A DNA stretch of 5,426 nt from Chloroflexota bacterium. GTDB lineage: Bacteria; Chloroflexota; UBA6077; CF-72. A model generated the notes under the pieces. It had not been told where the DNA came from and did not search any database. It saw nothing but the letters and a program-made list of their open reading frames with translations. Below are positions 1 through 5,426 of the stretch, one piece after another; position 1 is the first letter of the stretch, and each line of letters opens with the position of its first letter. Position numbers and translations under genes: made by a program. The stretch covers positions 1-5,426 of the forward strand of contig JAFAPL010001011.1 in assembly GCA_019247135.1 (NCBI GenBank). Direction: 5' to 3'.

Positions 1-449
1 AGCTCTTTGATGCGATCGGCCATGACTTCGGCGAAGCGGCCGCCTCGGGATTGACGCACGTCTTTGAGCGCTGCTTGCGTTTCGCGTCTGACCGCCTCGA
101 TGTGTGTGCCGCCCATGGAGTAGACCAGGGTGGGCTCGCCTTCGAGCGGGACGACGACGTAGCAGGCGACACAGTGCCACTCCCAGTGGCCGGTGAGCCA
201 CAGCATGCCGCTGCCGAAGCTCCAGTGGTTGGGGCCGCCGGGCACGATGGCGACATCCAGGTTGTGTTCGCGCATCTTGTCGCGTAGCGCCGCGTAGCGC
301 CTGGCGTATTCAGCTTGGGAGAACTGCTCGTAGACCGCGTCGTGGTAATAGGGCGTGCCGCGCATAGAGTTGAACGGCAGCGATTCGTCGAGGCGGTAGC
401 GCAGTTCTTCCCATGGCAGCGCCCCCGGGCGCGTGGGCGAGACCGTCAT
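1..449 (-). CDS. M24-family peptidase / creatinase-like protein, N-terminal part (truncated by window edge)
   Basis: The reading frame is open from the start to the left edge, so only about the first 150 residues are visible. Counted from the ATG at 458, residues 46-135 look like the creatinase N-terminal domain that precedes the metal-binding pita-bread domain in aminopeptidase P, prolidase and creatinase: an AEYARRYAALRDKM helix, then LDVAIVPGGPNHW, then strands around CYVVVPLEGEPTLVY. The catalytic metal ligands would lie beyond the edge and cannot be checked, so peptidase versus non-peptidase activity is open. No signal peptide is visible, so it is probably cytoplasmic. Two starts compete. 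The ATG at 449 sits 7 bases after a -10-like TAAGAT (leaderless) and I prefer it; the in-frame ATG at 458 has only a weak GAGAAG upstream. The gene diverges from ilvD across the palindrome cluster. The family call is fairly safe; the substrate is unknown. Confidence 0.72.
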   Translation of the reverse strand, partial: MTVSPTRPGALPWEELRYRLDESLPFNSMRGTPYYHDAVYEQFSQAEYARRYAALRDKMREHNLDVAIVPGGPNHWSFGSGMLWLTGHWEWHCVACYVVVPLEGEPTLVYSMGGTHIEAVRRETQAALKDVRQSRGGRFAEVMADRIKE

Positions 450-456
450 GGGCCGC

Positions 457-462
457 ATCTTA
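457..462 (-). promoter_or_regulatory. Putative -10 element for the M24-family gene (leaderless)
   Basis: Read on the minus strand, TAAGAT matches 4 of 6 positions of TATAAT and lies 7 bases before the ATG at 449. Together they read TAAGATGCGGCCCATG, which parallels TATGATGCGCGCGTG at the divergent ilvD start. No convincing -35 hexamer is present; that position falls inside the first palindrome. The call is inference from spacing and from the parallel with the opposite promoter. Confidence 0.4.
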
Positions 463-473
463 GCTTCTCGGGT

Positions 474-497
474 CGGGGCCGCTCATGAGCGGCCCCG
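474..497. repeat. Perfect 24-bp palindrome P1
   Basis: Every base from 474 to 497 pairs with its mirror partner around a centre between 485 and 486; the core reads GCTCATGAGC. As RNA or single-stranded DNA it would form a 10-bp hairpin with a CATG loop. It covers the -35 region of the minus-strand gene, about 36 bp from its proposed start at 449. Possible roles are a regulator-binding dyad or a REP-like element; sequence alone does not decide. Confidence 0.85.
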
Positions 498-521
498 CAC
501 GGCGGCTCATGAGCCGCCGTG
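498..521. repeat. Perfect 24-bp palindrome P2
   Basis: It is a second perfect palindrome directly abutting P1, centred between 509 and 510. It has the same 10-base core GCTCATGAGC as P1 but different arms, which still pair perfectly. Its centre is exactly midway between the proposed starts of the two divergent genes (449 and 570). Confidence 0.85.
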
Positions 522-522
522 A

Positions 523-546
523 GGAGCCCGAGCATGCTCGGGCTCC
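523..546. repeat. Perfect 24-bp palindrome P3
   Basis: It is a third perfect palindrome, one base after P2, centred between 534 and 535 with core GAGCATGCTC. It keeps the CATG centre of P1 and P2 but not their arms. It covers the -35 region of the proposed ilvD promoter, about 35 bp upstream of the GTG at 570. Confidence 0.85.
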
Positions 547-557
547 ATCCAAATAGC

Positions 558-563
558 TATGAT
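558..563 (+). promoter_or_regulatory. Putative -10 element for ilvD (leaderless)
   Basis: TATGAT matches 5 of 6 positions of TATAAT and ends 6 bases before the GTG at 570. Transcription would therefore begin at or next to the start codon. No good -35 hexamer is found at 16-18 bp spacing, where palindrome P3 lies instead; this suggests a regulator acts there. Inferred from position only. Confidence 0.5.
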
Positions 564-569
564 GCGCGC

Positions 570-2255
570 GTGCCCTACGACGTGAAGGCCAACAGCTCCG
601 TCATCTTGAGTGGACGCGACCGCGCGCCCGCGCGCGCTTATTACAAAGCCATCGGCTTCACCGACGAAGACCTGCGCCGGCCCATCATTGGCATCGCCAA
701 TACCTGGACCGAGACGATGAACTGCAACTACCACCTGCGCCAGCTCGCCGCCCGCATCAAAGACGGCGTCCGTTCCGCGGGTGGCACGCCGATGGAGTTC
801 AACACCATCGCTATCAGCGACGGCATCACCATGGGCACCGAGGGCATGAAAGCGTCGCTGGTCAGCCGCGAGCTCATCGCGGACTCGATGGAGCTGATGG
901 CGCGCGGGCACATGTTCGACGCCTGGGTCACGGTAGTCGGATGCGACAAGACCATTCCCGCCGGCGGTATGGCGCTGCTCAGAATGAACATCCCGGGCCT
1001 GCTCCTGTACGGCGGCTCCATCCTGCCAGGCCGACTCGGCAACCGTGACCTCACCATCCAGGATGTTTTCGAAGCCGTCGGCGCCCACGCTGCGGGCAAG
1101 ATCACGGACGAAGAGCTCAAAGAGGTCGAAGATTTCGCCTGCCCCGGCGCCGGCGCGTGTGGCGGCCAGTTCACCGCCAACACCATGGCCATGGCTCTCG
1201 AGTTCTGTGGCCTCGCGGCCATGGGCAGCGGCGCCGTGCCCGCCGAAGATCCAACCAAGGGCGACGTCGGCTTTCAAATGGGCCAGCTCGTCATGGACGT
1301 GCTCGAACGGGGTGTCCGTCCGCGAGAGATCTTCACCTCCGCGGCAATCGCCAATGCCATCGCGGGTGTGGCGACGACGGGTGGTTCCACGAATGCCGTC
1401 CTGCACCTGATGGCGATGGCGCATGAAGCTGGCGTCCAGCTCGATATGGACGATTTCGATCGCATCAGCTCAGGCACGCCGCTGCTCGGCGACATGCGCC
1501 CGGGCGGTCGCTATTCCGCGCCCGACCTGTATCGCGCCGGCGGCACCCGCCTGGTAGCGCAGCGATTGGTTCAGGGCGGCTACGTCGATCCGAACGCCAT
1601 GACTGTCTCTGGACGGACGTTCGGCCAGGAAGCTCAGCTCGCCGAAGAGTCGCCCGGTCAGGATGTCGTGCGTCCACTCGACCAGCCCATCAAGACGACC
1701 GGCGGCCTCGTCATTCTGCGCGGAAGCCTGGCCCCCGAAGGCTGCGTCATCAAAGTCGCCGGCCACGAACGCCAGGAGCACACCGGGCCGGCCCGTGTGT
1801 TCGAGGGCGAAGAGGCTGCCATGCAGGCCGTCACCGGCGGTCGCATCAAGCCCGGCGACGTGGTGGTTATTCGGTATGAGGGCCCGCGCGGCGGACCAGG
1901 CATGCGCGAGATGCTCGGCGTCACGGCCGCCATCGTCGGCCAGGGCCTCGGCGAGTCGGTCGCGTTGTTGACCGACGGGCGATTCTCGGGCGCGACGCGT
2001 GGTTTGATGGCTGGCCACGTGGCGCCGGAGGCCGCCGCCGGTGGACCGATCGCCGCCATACGCGAAGGCGACATCGTCGAGTTCGACATTCCGAATCGTC
2101 GACTGGACGTGCAACTGTCGGACGATGACGTGCGTGAGCGAATGAAGGACTGGCGTCGACCCGAGCCGCGCTATCGCGACGGCGTGTTCGCCAAGTACGT
2201 ATCGATGGTCGGCTCCGCTTCCGCGGGCGCGGTCACCACACCTGCGCTCACGTGA
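570..2255 (+). CDS. ilvD: Dihydroxy-acid dehydratase
   Basis: The product removes water from 2,3-dihydroxy-isovalerate or 2,3-dihydroxy-3-methylvalerate to give the 2-keto acid precursors of valine, leucine and isoleucine (EC 4.2.1.9, cytoplasmic Fe-S enzyme). Numbering from GTG 570 (561 residues, normal length), the expected cluster cysteines are C52 in ETMNCNYH, C125 in GCDKT and C197 in GAGACGGQ. The metal-site motif ISDGITMGTEGM (D84), D126 and the modifiable K127 are present. The C-terminal DGRFSGATRG supplies the catalytic serine (about S473). The GTG at 570 is chosen because VPYDVKANS matches where this family usually begins and because TATGAT lies 6 bases upstream. An in-frame ATG at 534 with GAGGAG at 521-526 is a real alternative, and a GTG at 519 is also possible; both put palindrome P3 inside the gene. 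The stop overlaps the next gene by 4 bases. Function is confident, the start less so. Confidence 0.93.
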   Translation: MPYDVKANSSVILSGRDRAPARAYYKAIGFTDEDLRRPIIGIANTWTETMNCNYHLRQLAARIKDGVRSAGGTPMEFNTIAISDGITMGTEGMKASLVSRELIADSMELMARGHMFDAWVTVVGCDKTIPAGGMALLRMNIPGLLLYGGSILPGRLGNRDLTIQDVFEAVGAHAAGKITDEELKEVEDFACPGAGACGGQFTANTMAMALEFCGLAAMGSGAVPAEDPTKGDVGFQMGQLVMDVLERGVRPREIFTSAAIANAIAGVATTGGSTNAVLHLMAMAHEAGVQLDMDDFDRISSGTPLLGDMRPGGRYSAPDLYRAGGTRLVAQRLVQGGYVDPNAMTVSGRTFGQEAQLAEESPGQDVVRPLDQPIKTTGGLVILRGSLAPEGCVIKVAGHERQEHTGPARVFEGEEAAMQAVTGGRIKPGDVVVIRYEGPRGGPGMREMLGVTAAIVGQGLGESVALLTDGRFSGATRGLMAGHVAPEAAAGGPIAAIREGDIVEFDIPNRRLDVQLSDDDVRERMKDWRRPEPRYRDGVFAKYVSMVGSASAGAVTTPALT

Positions 2256-3118
2256 GACTCGGGCTCCTCATCGAATGTGAGGAGGGGCTCACCTGGGAGC
2301 GTTGGCGCCTGATTCTGCATGTGGCGGAGCGGCTTCAGTTCCACTCCGTCTGGGTTTCAGATCACCTCGAATCGCCGTGGCCGGAGGCCGACAAACACGG
2401 ACTGGAAGCGTGGGCCGCGCTGACGTTCGCGGCTGCTCAGACTCGACGCATCCGCCTGGGTAGCCTCGTCTCTCCGGTTACGTTCCGTCAGCCGGCGGTG
2501 TTTGCACGCACGGTGGAGAGCGTCCACGAACTTGCCCGCGGGCGGCTGATCGTTGGCCTCGGACTTGGTTGGAATGCCGCGGAGCACAAGAACGCCGGGC
2601 TGCCGTTTCCGCCCATCGATCAACGCGCGCTCGTGCTGGAGCGGACCGTCGAGGTCTTGCCCGACGTGCCGATCCTGATTGGTGGGGCGGGCGCAACGTC
2701 ACTCCACCTCGCGGCACGCTTCGCGCAGGCGTGGAATATCACGACCGCATCACCCGAAAAGTTCGTCGAACGATCGAACGAGCTGGACCGGTACTGCCAG
2801 AAGCATGGACGAGATCCCAGCGCGGTGGAACGCTCGATCGCCGTTGGCGTGCTCGTTGGCCGTGACGCGGCGGAGCTGCGATCACGCAGTCGCCGCATGC
2901 AGGACGTCGTGCCGCCGCTCGCGGAGGTCGCCCTGGACGACGTGCCCAGCGCGGCGCGGGAGCGTGGCTGGATCGTCGGGACGCCACGCGAGGTGGTGGC
3001 GACGCTGGACTCGCTCGCGCACGCCGGCGTCGATCTCGCGATGCTCGGGTACTACGACGTGGACGACATTGCCGGACTGGAGTTGATCGCGGACCGAGTC
3101 ATGCCCGCATTTGTATGA
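2252..3118 (+). CDS. Luciferase-like (LLM class) flavin/F420-dependent oxidoreductase, compact form
   Basis: This 288-residue TIM-barrel protein belongs to the bacterial luciferase-like family, whose members use F420 or FMN to oxidise or reduce varied small molecules. Landmarks in order are SVWVSDHLE (about 32-40), RIRLGSLVSPVTFRQP (66-81), the helix HELARGRLIVGLGLGWN (92-108), PILIGGAG (140-147) and the C-terminal VGTPREVVATLDSLAHAGVD (242-261). Between LERTVEVL and PILIGG, where relatives usually carry roughly 30-40 residues (LWT...F.G..Y...PKPVQ), only PDV remains, so the protein is shorter than usual. The GTG start lies in a GTGA overlap with the ilvD stop and has no Shine-Dalgarno sequence, so translational coupling is likely. 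F420 use is likelier than FMN from general resemblance, but this is not proven. The substrate is unknown. Confidence 0.82.
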   Translation: MRLGLLIECEEGLTWERWRLILHVAERLQFHSVWVSDHLESPWPEADKHGLEAWAALTFAAAQTRRIRLGSLVSPVTFRQPAVFARTVESVHELARGRLIVGLGLGWNAAEHKNAGLPFPPIDQRALVLERTVEVLPDVPILIGGAGATSLHLAARFAQAWNITTASPEKFVERSNELDRYCQKHGRDPSAVERSIAVGVLVGRDAAELRSRSRRMQDVVPPLAEVALDDVPSAARERGWIVGTPREVVATLDSLAHAGVDLAMLGYYDVDDIAGLELIADRVMPAFV

Positions 3119-3930
3119 AGATCCCCGGCGAGATTGCCGTCATCACTGGCGGCGCGAGCGGCATCGGGCGCGCTACAGCGCTCGCACTCGCACGGGCAGG
3201 TGCTGATATCGCGTTGGCCGACGTGAATGACGCACGCCTGGAGTCGACGCGCGCGGAAATCGCTGCATGTGGCCGACGCGTTATTGCGGTTCATTGTGAC
3301 GTTTCTCACGACGATGACGTGCAGCACCTGGCGGAAGTCGTAGAGGCCCTTCTTGGACCGCCTGCCATCGTGATGAACAACGCGGGAGTCGTACTGCGGG
3401 GCGCGCTCGAACAGATCAGCATGGCTGACTGGCAGTGGTGCTTCGGTATCAATGTCTTCGGCGTGGTGCGCGGTGTCCAGGCGTTCTTGCCCGGCATGAT
3501 CGAGCGTCGGCGTGGCTACATCGTCAACACCGGGTCTATGGCCGGATTGGTGGCGTTGACCGGCGAGGGCGGGCCGTACGTCGCGTCGAAATTCGCGGTT
3601 GTGGGCCTGACGGAGGCGCTCGCGTTGTATGCGCACCAGTTTGGCGTGGGCGTGTCGCTGTTGTGTCCAGCGGGCGTGCGCACCAATCTGGCGGAGACCG
3701 GCCGCTCGATCGGCATGTCGCCCGAACGCGAGCGGACCGAGACGCTGATGGCCCAAACCATTCAAGGCGGAGCGGAAGTGGAACCAGAGGAGATTGCCGC
3801 GCTCGTCGTCGACGCGATTGAGGAGGAGCGCTTCTTGATCCTGCCCGACGAGGTGCAGGCGGAGGTCGTCCGCCATCGCGCGCACGACATCAACGCGTTC
3901 GTCGCCGCCCGGCTCCGGATTGGGGGGTGA
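3115..3930 (+). CDS. Classical short-chain dehydrogenase/reductase (SDR)
   Basis: This 271-residue Rossmann-fold oxidoreductase has the full classical SDR set: cofactor motif TGGASGIG (11-18), CDV (61-63), NNAG (88-91), N113, catalytic S141, and YVASK (Y155, K159), followed by PAGVRT (185-190). An acidic D36 at the end of the second strand (ALADVND) points to NAD(H) rather than NADP(H). The substrate cannot be read from sequence; a secondary alcohol/ketone pair is the general expectation. It starts at the ATG of an ATGA overlap with the preceding gene and has no obvious ribosome site, so it is probably made by coupled translation as the third gene of the ilvD unit. No terminator follows directly; instead the next promoter overlaps its stop codon. 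Confidence 0.9.
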   Translation: MKIPGEIAVITGGASGIGRATALALARAGADIALADVNDARLESTRAEIAACGRRVIAVHCDVSHDDDVQHLAEVVEALLGPPAIVMNNAGVVLRGALEQISMADWQWCFGINVFGVVRGVQAFLPGMIERRRGYIVNTGSMAGLVALTGEGGPYVASKFAVVGLTEALALYAHQFGVGVSLLCPAGVRTNLAETGRSIGMSPERERTETLMAQTIQGGAEVEPEEIAALVVDAIEEERFLILPDEVQAEVVRHRAHDINAFVAARLRIGG

Positions 3931-3955
3931 CAAGCTCGCATGCGTGCGGTATAGT
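3927..3955 (+). promoter_or_regulatory. Promoter of the leuS leader
   Basis: A -35 box GTGACA (3927-3932, 5 of 6 to TTGACA) and a -10 box TATAGT (3950-3955, 5 of 6 to TATAAT) are separated by the ideal 17 bp. The -35 box overlaps the SDR stop codon. Transcription should start near 3962-3963, at the ATG of the leader peptide. This is the best sigma-70-type promoter in the window and gives leuS its own transcript. Confidence 0.72.
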
Positions 3956-3962
3956 GGCGCCG

Positions 3963-4031
3963 ATGGCTACTTCGCGCGCGTGGTCCGCTGCGCTCTTGTT
4001 GCGCCGCCGTACTGGGGGGTTGCAACGCTAG
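3963..4031 (+). CDS. Leucine leader peptide of leuS (22 codons)
   Basis: A short frame encodes MATSRAWSAALLLRRRTGGLQR and ends in TAG. Codons 11-13 are CTC TTG TTG (3993-4001), three leucines in a row, and codon 20 is another TTG. Three Arg codons follow the Leu run. The ATG is 7 bases after the -10 box with no ribosome site, so it would be translated leaderless. It is followed by a terminator and by leuS, the arrangement of classical amino acid attenuators. A ribosome stalled at the Leu codons would cover up to about base 4012 and leave the antiterminator strand free. A ribosome that reaches the stop codon would cover it. The peptide itself probably has no other function. The call rests on how well the parts fit, not on homology. 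Confidence 0.7.
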   Translation: MATSRAWSAALLLRRRTGGLQR

Positions 4032-4073
4032 CCTGACGCGCAAAGTTTCGAGAGACCGGTGCAACGCCTCCAG
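4012..4073 (+). promoter_or_regulatory. Antiterminator hairpin of the leuS attenuator
   Basis: Bases 4012-4024 (CTGGGGGGTTGCA, inside leader codons 17-21) can pair with 4060-4073 (TGCAACGCCTCCAG). This gives 13 pairs with one G-U pair (4016-4069) and one bulged G (4066). The second strand contains most of the 5' arm of the terminator, so the two structures exclude each other. The 35-base loop between the strands includes the leader stop codon. Confidence 0.68.
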
Positions 4074-4099
4074 GAGATCCACCTGGAGGCGTTCGTTTT
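4063..4099 (+). terminator. Intrinsic terminator / attenuator upstream of leuS
   Basis: AACGCCTCCAGG (4063-4074) pairs perfectly over 12 bp with CCTGGAGGCGTT (4082-4093) across a 7-base loop, followed by CGTTTTG. The T run is short, so efficiency is uncertain. It lies 32 bases after the leader stop and before leuS. Readthrough transcripts from the ilvD unit would meet it as well, so it can also end that operon. Confidence 0.8.
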
Positions 4100-4103
4100 G
4101 TCC

Positions 4104-4135
4104 GCGCCGGTCGACTCTTCAGCCACGACCGGCGC
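4104..4135 (+). other. Hairpin just upstream of the leuS ribosome binding site
   Basis: GCGCCGGTCG (4104-4113) pairs perfectly with CGACCGGCGC (4126-4135) around a 12-base loop. It lies between the attenuator and the Shine-Dalgarno sequence, 4 bases before GGAG. It has no T run and is not a terminator. It may keep the ribosome site exposed or protect the readthrough mRNA; its role is unknown. Confidence 0.6.
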
Positions 4136-4139
4136 CGCT

Positions 4140-4143
4140 GGAG
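4140..4143 (+). promoter_or_regulatory. Shine-Dalgarno sequence of leuS
   Basis: GGAG (within CTGGAG, 4138-4143) lies 9 bases before the ATG at 4153 and supports that start. It contrasts with the leaderless or coupled starts of the other genes. The same CTGGAG also forms part of the terminator 3' arm (4083-4088). Confidence 0.6.
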
Positions 4144-4152
4144 TAACACGCC

Positions 4153-5426
4153 ATGGACCGTTACGAGCCACAGATCATCGAACGCCACTGGCAAGCCGAG
4201 TGGCGCCGCACGCGGATCTACGAGCCGGACCTTCGTGGGGCCGAAAGGCCGTTCTACAACCTGATGATGTTCCCCTATCCGTCAGCGGAGGGGCTACACG
4301 TCGGCAACGTGTTCGCCTACACGGGCGCGGATGTTCAGGGGCGCTTCATGGCCATGCGCGGCTACGACGTGTTCGAGCCCATGGGCTTCGACGCCTTCGG
4401 TATCCACAGTGAAAACTTCTCAATCAAACGCAACGTGCATCCGCGCGAGCTGACGGCACGCAACATCCAGAACTTCCGAGAACGACAGCTCGAGCGGATT
4501 GGCAACCGCTTCGACTGGTCGCGCGCCGTCAACACGACTGACTCGGCGTACTACCGCTGGACGCAGTGGATCTTTCTGCAGCTGTACCGAGCGGGTCTGG
4601 CCGTGCGCAAATCGGCGCCTGTCAACTGGTGTCCCGCGGACCAGACCGTGCTTGCCGACGAGCTGGTGATCGACGGCCGCTGCGAGCGCTGTTCGACGCC
4701 GGTCGTCGAGAAGACACTCGAGCAGTGGTTCCTGCGCATCACCGCCTACGCCAATCGTCTGCTCGAGAACCTCGATGGCCTGGACTGGCCCGACGTGGTG
4801 AAGACTGCGCAGCGCAACTGGATTGGCCGTGCTGAAGACGGGACGTTTCGGCTGCGCGATTGGCTCATTTCGCGTCAACGCTACTGGGGGACACCGATTC
4901 CGATCGTCTATTGTTCGGGGTGTGGCAGCGTGCCCGTGCCCGAGGAGCAGCTGCCCGTGCTCCTGCCCGACACTGAGCACTGGCGTGGCCGCGGAACAGG
5001 GTCGTCGCCGCTGGCCGATATTCCGGAGTTCGTCAACACGACCTGCCCGCAATGTGGCGGACCGGCCCGCCGAGAAACCGATGTCGCCGATAATTTCCTC
5101 GACTCCGCATGGTATTTTCTCAGGTATCCGTCAGCCCACGTCCACGACAGGCCGTTCGATCCCGAGCTGACTGAAAAATGGCTGCCTGTGGACATGTACG
5201 TCGGTGGGGCCGAACACGCCGTCCTGCACCTGATGTACAGCCGATTCATCACCATGGCGCTGCACGATCTCGGTCACCTCGACTTCGAAGAGCCCTTCAC
5301 CCGTTTTCGCTCGAACGGACTGCTGGTCATGCGCGGCGCGAAGATCAGCAAGAGTCGCGGCAATGTGGTCAATCCAGATGAATACATCGACCGTCACGGC
5401 GCGGACGCGCTGCGCATGTTCCTGCT
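4153..5426 (+). CDS. leuS: Leucyl-tRNA synthetase lacking the CP1 editing domain (3' end beyond window)
   Basis: This class I synthetase charges tRNA-Leu with leucine in the cytoplasm; 424 codons are visible. Landmarks are a HIGH-type motif LHVGN (48-52), GFDAFGIHSEN (78-88), a zinc-knuckle-like CPAD...CERC (160-180), LEQWFLRITAYA (189-200), RNWIGR (221-226), LRDWLISRQRYWG (234-246), a second CSGC...CPQC pair (254-301), the LeuRS signature GGAEHAVLHLMYSRF (351-365) and KISKS (397-401). Only about 7 residues separate RNWIGR from LRDWLISRQ, where ordinary LeuRS carries a CP1 editing domain of well over 150 residues. The insertion usually seen before KMSKS is absent too. The frame is intact across both sites, so this looks like a natural compact form and not a broken gene. 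The anticodon-binding and C-terminal parts are out of view. The start is supported by GGAG and follows the attenuator. Identity as LeuRS is firm. Confidence 0.93.
   Translation, partial: MDRYEPQIIERHWQAEWRRTRIYEPDLRGAERPFYNLMMFPYPSAEGLHVGNVFAYTGADVQGRFMAMRGYDVFEPMGFDAFGIHSENFSIKRNVHPRELTARNIQNFRERQLERIGNRFDWSRAVNTTDSAYYRWTQWIFLQLYRAGLAVRKSAPVNWCPADQTVLADELVIDGRCERCSTPVVEKTLEQWFLRITAYANRLLENLDGLDWPDVVKTAQRNWIGRAEDGTFRLRDWLISRQRYWGTPIPIVYCSGCGSVPVPEEQLPVLLPDTEHWRGRGTGSSPLADIPEFVNTTCPQCGGPARRETDVADNFLDSAWYFLRYPSAHVHDRPFDPELTEKWLPVDMYVGGAEHAVLHLMYSRFITMALHDLGHLDFEEPFTRFRSNGLLVMRGAKISKSRGNVVNPDEYIDRHGADALRMFL

Follow-up and report, generated by a model that had tools for sequence, protein, structure and literature searches.

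Bacterial leucyl-tRNA synthetases (LeuRSs) with no editing domain or a degenerate one are known from Mycoplasma, where they have been read as genome decay. Mycoplasma mobile is a reduced Mollicute, and its LeuRS is the only one it is known to have. We take the M. mobile enzyme (PDB 3ziu) to be naturally devoid of the CP1 editing domain, and its one-piece match in our sequence searches agrees. Editing-defective LeuRSs of Mycoplasma have been described (PMC7373986; PMC4014445), and misactivation of norvaline by the M. mobile enzyme is reported to be 122-fold less efficient than activation of leucine (PMC3834818). As for duplicated LeuRSs, the available text of PMC9437257 names two archaeal cases. 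The available text of a paper on cyanobacterial LeuRS (PMC4893482) mentions no CP1-less form. In titles and abstract openings, from a literature search that mostly left out subscription journals, we found no description of a CP1-less LeuRS in Chloroflexota or cyanobacteria.

Here we analyze a 5,426-nucleotide stretch of DNA from a Chloroflexota bacterium (GenBank assembly GCA_019247135.1, contig JAFAPL010001011.1, positions 1 to 5,426; hereafter, the window), which encodes such an enzyme. We favor, with a probability of roughly 0.55, the reading that this is an accessory LeuRS (LeuRS2) of a clade marked by an HSEN motif, that it is controlled by leucine, and that it has lost editing.

The window gene encodes a LeuRS without CP1

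The gene occupies positions 4153-5424 of the forward strand, starts with ATG, and runs past the window end, so that residues 1-424 of about 611 are covered. In profile searches, this frame matched PF00133 and PF09334 and scored 562.4 bits against TIGR00396 (leuS_bact; cut-off 548.4), with the best stretch stopping at profile position 225. PF13603, which we take to be the LeuRS editing domain, matched neither this frame nor P0001, a full-length relative of 611 amino acids that is encoded on a separate contig (2,785 bases) and differs from the window protein at one residue. Reading is open across the CP1 junction, with no stop (RNWIGRAEDGTFRLRDWLISRQRYWG, 4813-4890), and alignment places a linker, AEDGTF (4831-4848, forward strand), where CP1 would be. 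The CP1 stretch of the alignment holds 9 residues in the window protein versus about 118-375, mostly 185-215, in CP1-bearing relatives.

The first-pass annotation, made from the DNA letters, had called this a LeuRS without the CP1 editing domain and proposed alignment with a full-length enzyme. Window residues 1-230 correspond to residues 1-230 of Thermus thermophilus LeuRS, and residues 223 onward to 409 onward; as judged from the alignment, the T. thermophilus chain that the window protein skips is CP1. The motifs TRP[DE]T, VPAHD, and GTGAVM, presumably CP1 signatures, were present in all 26 CP1-bearing homologues and in 0 of the 89 that lack CP1, and they were absent from every reading frame of the window. 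The missing PF13603 match, the T. thermophilus alignment, and the missing motifs all bear out the call.

The remainder of the protein is known from P0001, which scored 690.2 bits against TIGR00396 (cut-off 548.4) and contains the anticodon-binding domain PF08264. The domain search over its full length found no editing domain past the part covered by the window, ruling out for P0001 a CP1 placed elsewhere in the protein. An AlphaFold2 model of P0001 (mean pLDDT 88, pTM 0.83) aligned with M. mobile LeuRS (3ziu_B) at TM 0.82/0.87 over 576 columns with 38% identity, so the likeness to this CP1-less enzyme that had been noted from the sequence holds. These data show that the protein retains its catalytic core, its anticodon-binding domain, and its C-terminal region. 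The gene had also been described as compact and intact; it is intact as far as the window shows, but the window end cuts it.

The active site has altered motifs

The class I signature, expected to be HXGH, reads HVGN in the window enzyme (residues 49-52; 4297-4308, forward strand). GIHSEN (residues 83-88; 4399-4416, forward strand) stands where GLPAEN is expected, and the KMSKS motif is KISKS (residues 397-401; 5341-5355, forward strand). HXGN replaced HXGH in 92 of 92 CP1-less tree rows and in 68 CP1-bearing rows, and GIHSEN accompanied HXGN among the aligned rows. Since three Chloroflexota clade members (L164, L173, and L175) combine HSEN with HVGH, the two active-site changes are separable. 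Besides H52N, which selects the rows, near-fixed differences between 159 HXGN and 75 HXGH rows were P85H, A86S, and T311V; because of the same three members, the HXGH rows in this motif comparison and in the terminator and T-box comparisons below partly belong to the HSEN clade.

In a FastTree tree, the HXGN rows fell within one 163-row clade whose basal support was low (0.407; P0071, described below, included). In an IQ-TREE tree, the HXGN clade was split from six ordinary LeuRSs with SH-aLRT 99. Motifs and tree placement put the window enzyme in a LeuRS clade whose members have GIHSEN and, mostly, HXGN.

CP1 state changed repeatedly within the clade

CP1 was absent from 94 and present in 26 of the 120 best homologues, a proportion that is not a rate, since the search took in proteins of about 233-742 amino acids only and this filter favors short ones. 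Source names among the homologues were Chloroflexota, Roseiflexaceae, several cyanobacteria, and one Phycisphaeraceae bacterium. A search with the Phycisphaeraceae protein returned more CP1-less relatives (e.g., P0250, P0255, P0262, P0294, and P0306) amid many CP1-bearing ones.

We counted CP1 state changes on trees built with the junction columns excluded, after loci that were fragmentary or duplicated had been removed along with five short homologues and seven phage rows. At least seven changes occurred on an 81-row tree that excluded rows at least 80% identical to a kept row and included P0071, and at least six on a 56-row tree from which P0071 and 24 distant rows were also dropped. P0071 is an apparent chimera, with a CP1-less Roseiflexaceae-type first part and a second part like the CP1-bearing P0110 and P0113, joined near the CP1 site. 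Because its halves match different families at 89-95%, it was left out of the 56-row tree and the 15-row test described below; it was retained in the FastTree tree, the 81-row tree, and the first single-origin test.

Forcing the 23 CP1-less rows of the 56-row tree into one clade cost 360 log units (AU p 4e-160), which rejects one common origin of CP1 absence for all rows; the test that still included P0071 gave the same outcome. Forcing together the 15 rows of window, cyanobacterial, and Roseiflexaceae type, a group chosen after the tree was known, cost 35 units (p 0.0012), and one origin for these was likewise rejected. The CP1-bearing rows nested in the window's group are the least secure part of this picture, as P0005, P0007, P0037, and P0090 are less than full length and the C-terminal matches of P0005 and P0007 are weak. 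P0069 and P0087 are lone CP1-less rows in the Ktedonobacteria-type group; CP1-bearing neighbors match them on either side of the junction, which gives no obvious sign of a chimera. As reconstructed on these trees, CP1 state changed repeatedly within the HSEN clade. The counts do not separate loss of CP1 from regain, and some changes may reflect regain by recombination.

An assembly deletion or a decaying gene is an extremely improbable account of the window. Artefacts or decay do occur in the LeuRS2 family, as the P0071 chimera and broken frames in genomes G238 and G332 illustrate. However, P0001 lacks CP1 on another contig with one differing residue, and dN/dS was 0.08-0.14 among three cyanobacterial CP1-less leuS genes. 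Since 94 of the 120 best homologues are also CP1-less, the absence is not an assembly accident, and a deletion at the junction is ruled out by P0001 together with the CP1-less family.

Relatives with an HSEN-type LeuRS usually carry an ordinary one

An HSEN-type LeuRS was found at E 1e-150 or better in 16 of 47 Ktedonobacteria-class genomes (the class that includes Ktedonospora, G001), and an ordinary CP1-bearing LeuRS was also present in all 16. None of the 47 contained a one-piece CP1-less LeuRS; for the 16 this follows because every match starts after the CP1 site. With G238, 17 Chloroflexota genomes thus combine an HSEN-type LeuRS with an ordinary CP1-bearing one. In this family, LeuRS2 is probably often a spare copy. 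Across 400 Chloroflexota genomes, the best match was only 2.9e-144, so no CP1-less copy of the window kind was seen among them. A scan of genome contigs returned at least 80 loci; all listed frames were at least 762 amino acids long, and no CP1-less genome was among the matches listed.

The genomes nearest to the window by ilvD (80% identity), G150, G166, and G238, each have an ordinary CP1-bearing LeuRS, which is the only kind in G150 and G166 and is cut by a contig end in G238. The second leuS of G238 is HSEN-type and retains CP1, and its first two pieces are 71-77% identical to P0001. Its frame (L114:320-2667) is broken near 1888, through decay or sequencing error; G238:C26 was considered as a CP1-less copy and rejected, as CP1 is present and the frame broken. 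The HSEN-type leuS of G332 (L117) is likewise interrupted, by decay or sequencing error, leaving frames of 434 and 447 amino acids.

The first-pass annotation had offered four explanations for the missing domain: tolerance of mistranslation, a very selective synthetic site, a free-standing editing protein, or a second full-length LeuRS. The relatives (16 of 16 in the Ktedonobacteria class, and G238) favor the last. By analogy, and on the strength of CP1-bearing relatives of the window LeuRS, on which all our statements about paralogues rest, we infer a second, ordinary CP1-bearing LeuRS in the window organism.

We consider it rather unlikely that the window gene is the organism's only LeuRS, in which case leucine codons would be translated with more errors or the synthetic site would be highly selective. 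In two Gemmatimonadota assemblies and one Chloroflexota assembly of unstated completeness (G002, G004, and G005), an HSEN-type, CP1-bearing LeuRS was the sole LeuRS detected, so the HSEN-type core is probably competent as a housekeeping enzyme; degenerate LeuRS editing is also tolerated in Mycoplasma (PMC7373986). Against a sole LeuRS stand the ordinary CP1-bearing enzyme in G150, G166, and G238 and the location of three cyanobacterial CP1-less copies on plasmids, which suits an extra gene.

Leaders of leuS genes suggest leucine control

Upstream of the window leuS, a sigma-70-like promoter (GTGACA-17-TATAGT; 3927-3955, forward strand), identified by consensus match only, agrees at 10 of 12 positions (0.0 expected in shuffles). 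An ORF scan revealed a putative 22-codon leader peptide (MATSRAWSAALLLRRRTGGLQR, then a stop; 3963-4031, forward strand) with leucine codons CTC TTG TTG at 3993-4001. Between this ORF and leuS lies a terminator-like hairpin (4063-4093, forward strand) of 12 pairs with a loop of 7 and the tail CGTTTTGTCC. The scanned region contained 2 terminator-like sites against 0.4 expected, and the folding z of the leader was -3.56. The relative in G238 has the same order (L114 112-174): TATACT, the short ORF MARSSRSHSLLQPLLGGCRS with its stop, a hairpin with T tract, and leuS. Pairing of a competing antiterminator was equalled or beaten in 47 of 1000 shuffles for the window and 85 of 1000 for L114, and the terminator formed in every folded case. 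Counting duplicates, terminator-like sites preceded LeuRS in 26 of 67 HXGN and 26 of 93 HXGH rows. ORFs with at least three leucine codons before a terminator also occurred in T-box loci (e.g., L166, L168, and L169), where they are probably meaningless, and such ORFs also arise by chance. These comparisons weaken the leader argument, and the features point only weakly to a leader-peptide attenuator upstream of the window leuS.

No T-box (RF00230) was among the Rfam matches up to E 5 in window positions 3700-4300, and neither the window leader nor L114 gave any Rfam match at gathering score. A T-box above the Rfam gathering score preceded leuS in 6 of 19 HSEN-type Chloroflexota loci (L166, L167, L168, L171, L172, and L174), and the T-box core GGTGGTA.CGCG lay within 800 bases upstream in 14 of the 19. 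The core was seen in 14 of the 16 Ktedonobacteria-class genomes with LeuRS2; the exceptions were G276, whose contig starts inside the gene, and G311, with only 246 upstream bases covered. By eye, the L168 specifier is CUG. T-boxes also preceded ordinary leuS at L182-L184, which are 3 of the 11 scanned leaders from ordinary or unsorted leuS genes. Leucine control is therefore not specific to spare copies, and it marks a function in charging tRNA-Leu.

The three T-boxes called among the scanned ordinary leuS stretches all contain a complete tRNA-Ala(GGC) gene within the leader, before the antiterminator (L182:513-870, forward strand; L183:1470-1787 and L184:1508-1828, reverse strand). At L186 and L188, tRNA-Ala(GGC) has a similar place, with no T-box at gathering score; L188 has the core GGTGGTACCACGG.

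These leaders bear on whether the enzyme could act outside translation, for instance in supplying leucyl-adenylate or Leu-tRNA, as has been suggested for archaeal LeuRS-I. That protein, duplicated and with a disrupted CP1, is reported to bind tRNA-Leu and make leucyl-adenylate with no aminoacylation (PMC9437257). Such a role is very improbable here: the anticodon-binding domain and C-terminal region are retained, and the leaders of relatives appear to respond to tRNA-Leu charging, as expected for an enzyme that charges tRNA.

Neighboring genes and plasmid copies

As the first-pass annotation had recognized, a gene of branched-chain amino acid synthesis is nearby: ilvD, encoding dihydroxy-acid dehydratase (519-2255, forward strand; best fit PRK00911), whose product shares 99% identity over 97% with a protein attributed to a Chloroflexi MAG, which places the window in Chloroflexota. 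It is followed by genes for an LLM-class (luciferase-like) oxidoreductase (2252-3118) and a short-chain dehydrogenase/reductase (SDR; 3115-3930), both on the forward strand and each overlapping the preceding ORF by 4 bases. From this arrangement, the three apparently form an operon upstream, after which come the leuS promoter and leader. Divergent to ilvD is the start of a creatinase/prolidase-like gene (3-458, reverse strand), which ectoine hydrolase models match weakly.

Comparison of the LeuRS and ilvD matches by eye gave four pairs with an equal longest contig (3,344; 8,107; 22,001; and 24,489 bases). Linkage is ruled out for the 3,344-base pair, as both genes would not fit; the 22,001- and 24,489-base pairs look real, and the 8,107-base pair could be chance.

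CP1-less leuS genes reside on plasmids of three cyanobacteria, Aulosira laxa NIES-50, Nostoc sp. MS1, and Kovacikia minuta, the first two of which are typed conjugative. On the Kovacikia plasmid, a gene for a true dihydroxy-acid dehydratase is divergent to leuS (L083:7953-9740, reverse strand; PRK12448, 1161 bits), in contrast to the window ilvD a member of another subfamily (PRK12448 rather than PRK00911); ilvD is absent from the displayed stretches of the other two plasmids. At the three loci L081, L082, and L083, a conserved short ORF, MH(D/H)WDL and a stop, lies behind GAGGA or GAGAA and is followed by the hairpin GCCGGATC, upstream of the CP1-less leuS. By eye, no in-frame ATG, GTG, or TTG lies just upstream of the conserved start region of leuS at these loci; translation may begin at a rare codon, for example ATT or CTG.

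As had been proposed, the window LeuRS would be expected to be insensitive to benzoxaboroles. The plasmid copies raise the possibility of a resistance function: with its altered HIGH region, its lack of the CP1 pocket, or the two together, the window enzyme might evade a compound that inhibits the ordinary LeuRS. Known cases lend this reading some plausibility, as altered HIGH motifs raise the mupirocin resistance of IleRS2 up to a thousandfold (PMC10485003) and the plasmid-borne LeuRS AgnB2 gives self-immunity to agrocin 84 (PMC5059758). Carriage of three CP1-less copies on plasmids, two of them typed conjugative, and the recurrence of the CP1 change are also as expected for resistance. However, no biosynthetic cluster was present in the window or among the examined neighbors of L081-L083, L114, and L169, part of each context being covered; HXGN also occurs in the only LeuRS detected in two Gemmatimonadota assemblies; HVGH is retained by three Chloroflexota clade members; and a matching inhibitor is not known. 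We judge resistance an unlikely explanation.

Very small LeuRSs were also present on 13 large phage-like IMG/VR contigs of 66-608 kb (L122-L127, L129, L205, and L207-L211). Their matches span about 410-435 amino acids, within open frames of 420-446 in six of the first seven and 513 in L123. The three that were scanned have no CP1 and no detectable anticodon-binding domain, and the three displayed retain HXGH. Within the stretch covered, tRNA-Leu genes are present on four of seven scanned contigs.

Discussion

An accessory LeuRS under leucine control would work as follows. LeuRS2 would activate leucine and presumably charge tRNA-Leu without post-transfer editing, alongside an ordinary CP1-bearing LeuRS in the same cell. 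It would be transcribed when charged tRNA-Leu is short; in the window, a ribosome stalled at the leucine codons of the leader would prevent the terminator at 4063-4093 from forming. Further conjecture is that, given the enzyme's auxiliary role, the cell would tolerate the loss of proofreading or a selective synthetic site would compensate for it.

A bolder version, which we hold to be improbable, makes LeuRS2 a mobile, stress-induced bypass synthetase. Starvation or poisoning of the ordinary LeuRS would leave tRNA-Leu uncharged and so induce LeuRS2, the altered active site and missing CP1 pocket would confer immunity to inhibitors of either site, and the cost would be norvaline and isoleucine in the proteome. 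If so, the repeated deletion of CP1 would have been selected rather than being decay, undiscovered natural compounds that act at the CP1 site might exist, and the two different ilvD genes beside CP1-less leuS could supply leucine precursor in the same emergency.

Beyond Mycoplasma, numerous LeuRSs of a single clade are now seen to lack CP1, an absence that arose more than once, in bacteria such as Chloroflexota and cyanobacteria. The CP1-less genes are under purifying selection where this is measurable and are possibly second copies. The clade offers related LeuRS pairs with and without CP1, and it permits direct tests of when LeuRS proofreading is dispensable and of whether cells retain accessory synthetases as replacements that can be induced.

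Among described systems, the M. mobile LeuRS is, like the window enzyme, a CP1-less bacterial LeuRS of about 610-640 residues. Unlike it, the window enzyme comes from Chloroflexota, has ilvD nearby and HVGN and HSEN motifs, and belongs to a clade with CP1 changes of its own. AgnB2 of plasmid pAgK84 (PDB 5ah5), an extra LeuRS, resembles the cyanobacterial copies in being plasmid-borne, and it has no leucine-specific domain, much as the window LeuRS has almost nothing before KISKS; in contrast to the window enzyme, AgnB2 is reported to have an editing domain and a HIGH motif and to confer immunity to a compound that its host makes (PMC5059758). Sulfolobaceae LeuRS-I, in which CP1 is disrupted, and Halobacteria LeuRS2 are extra LeuRS copies (PMC9437257). 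Both are archaeal, with no aminoacylation reported for the former and drastically reduced activity for the latter, whereas the window enzyme, known from its sequence, fits the bacterial model. IleRS2 is a second synthetase that, like the window LeuRS, has a changed class I signature motif (PMC10485003), but there positions 1 and 3 are swapped (G/AXHH) and editing is kept (PMC9437257), whereas the window enzyme has N at position 4 and no editing domain. The threonine enzyme ThrRS T2 of Anabaena is an accessory synthetase with poor quality control that forms Ser-tRNA-Thr in low zinc (PMC9437257); it answers to zinc, whereas the window gene encodes a leucine enzyme that would answer to leucine.
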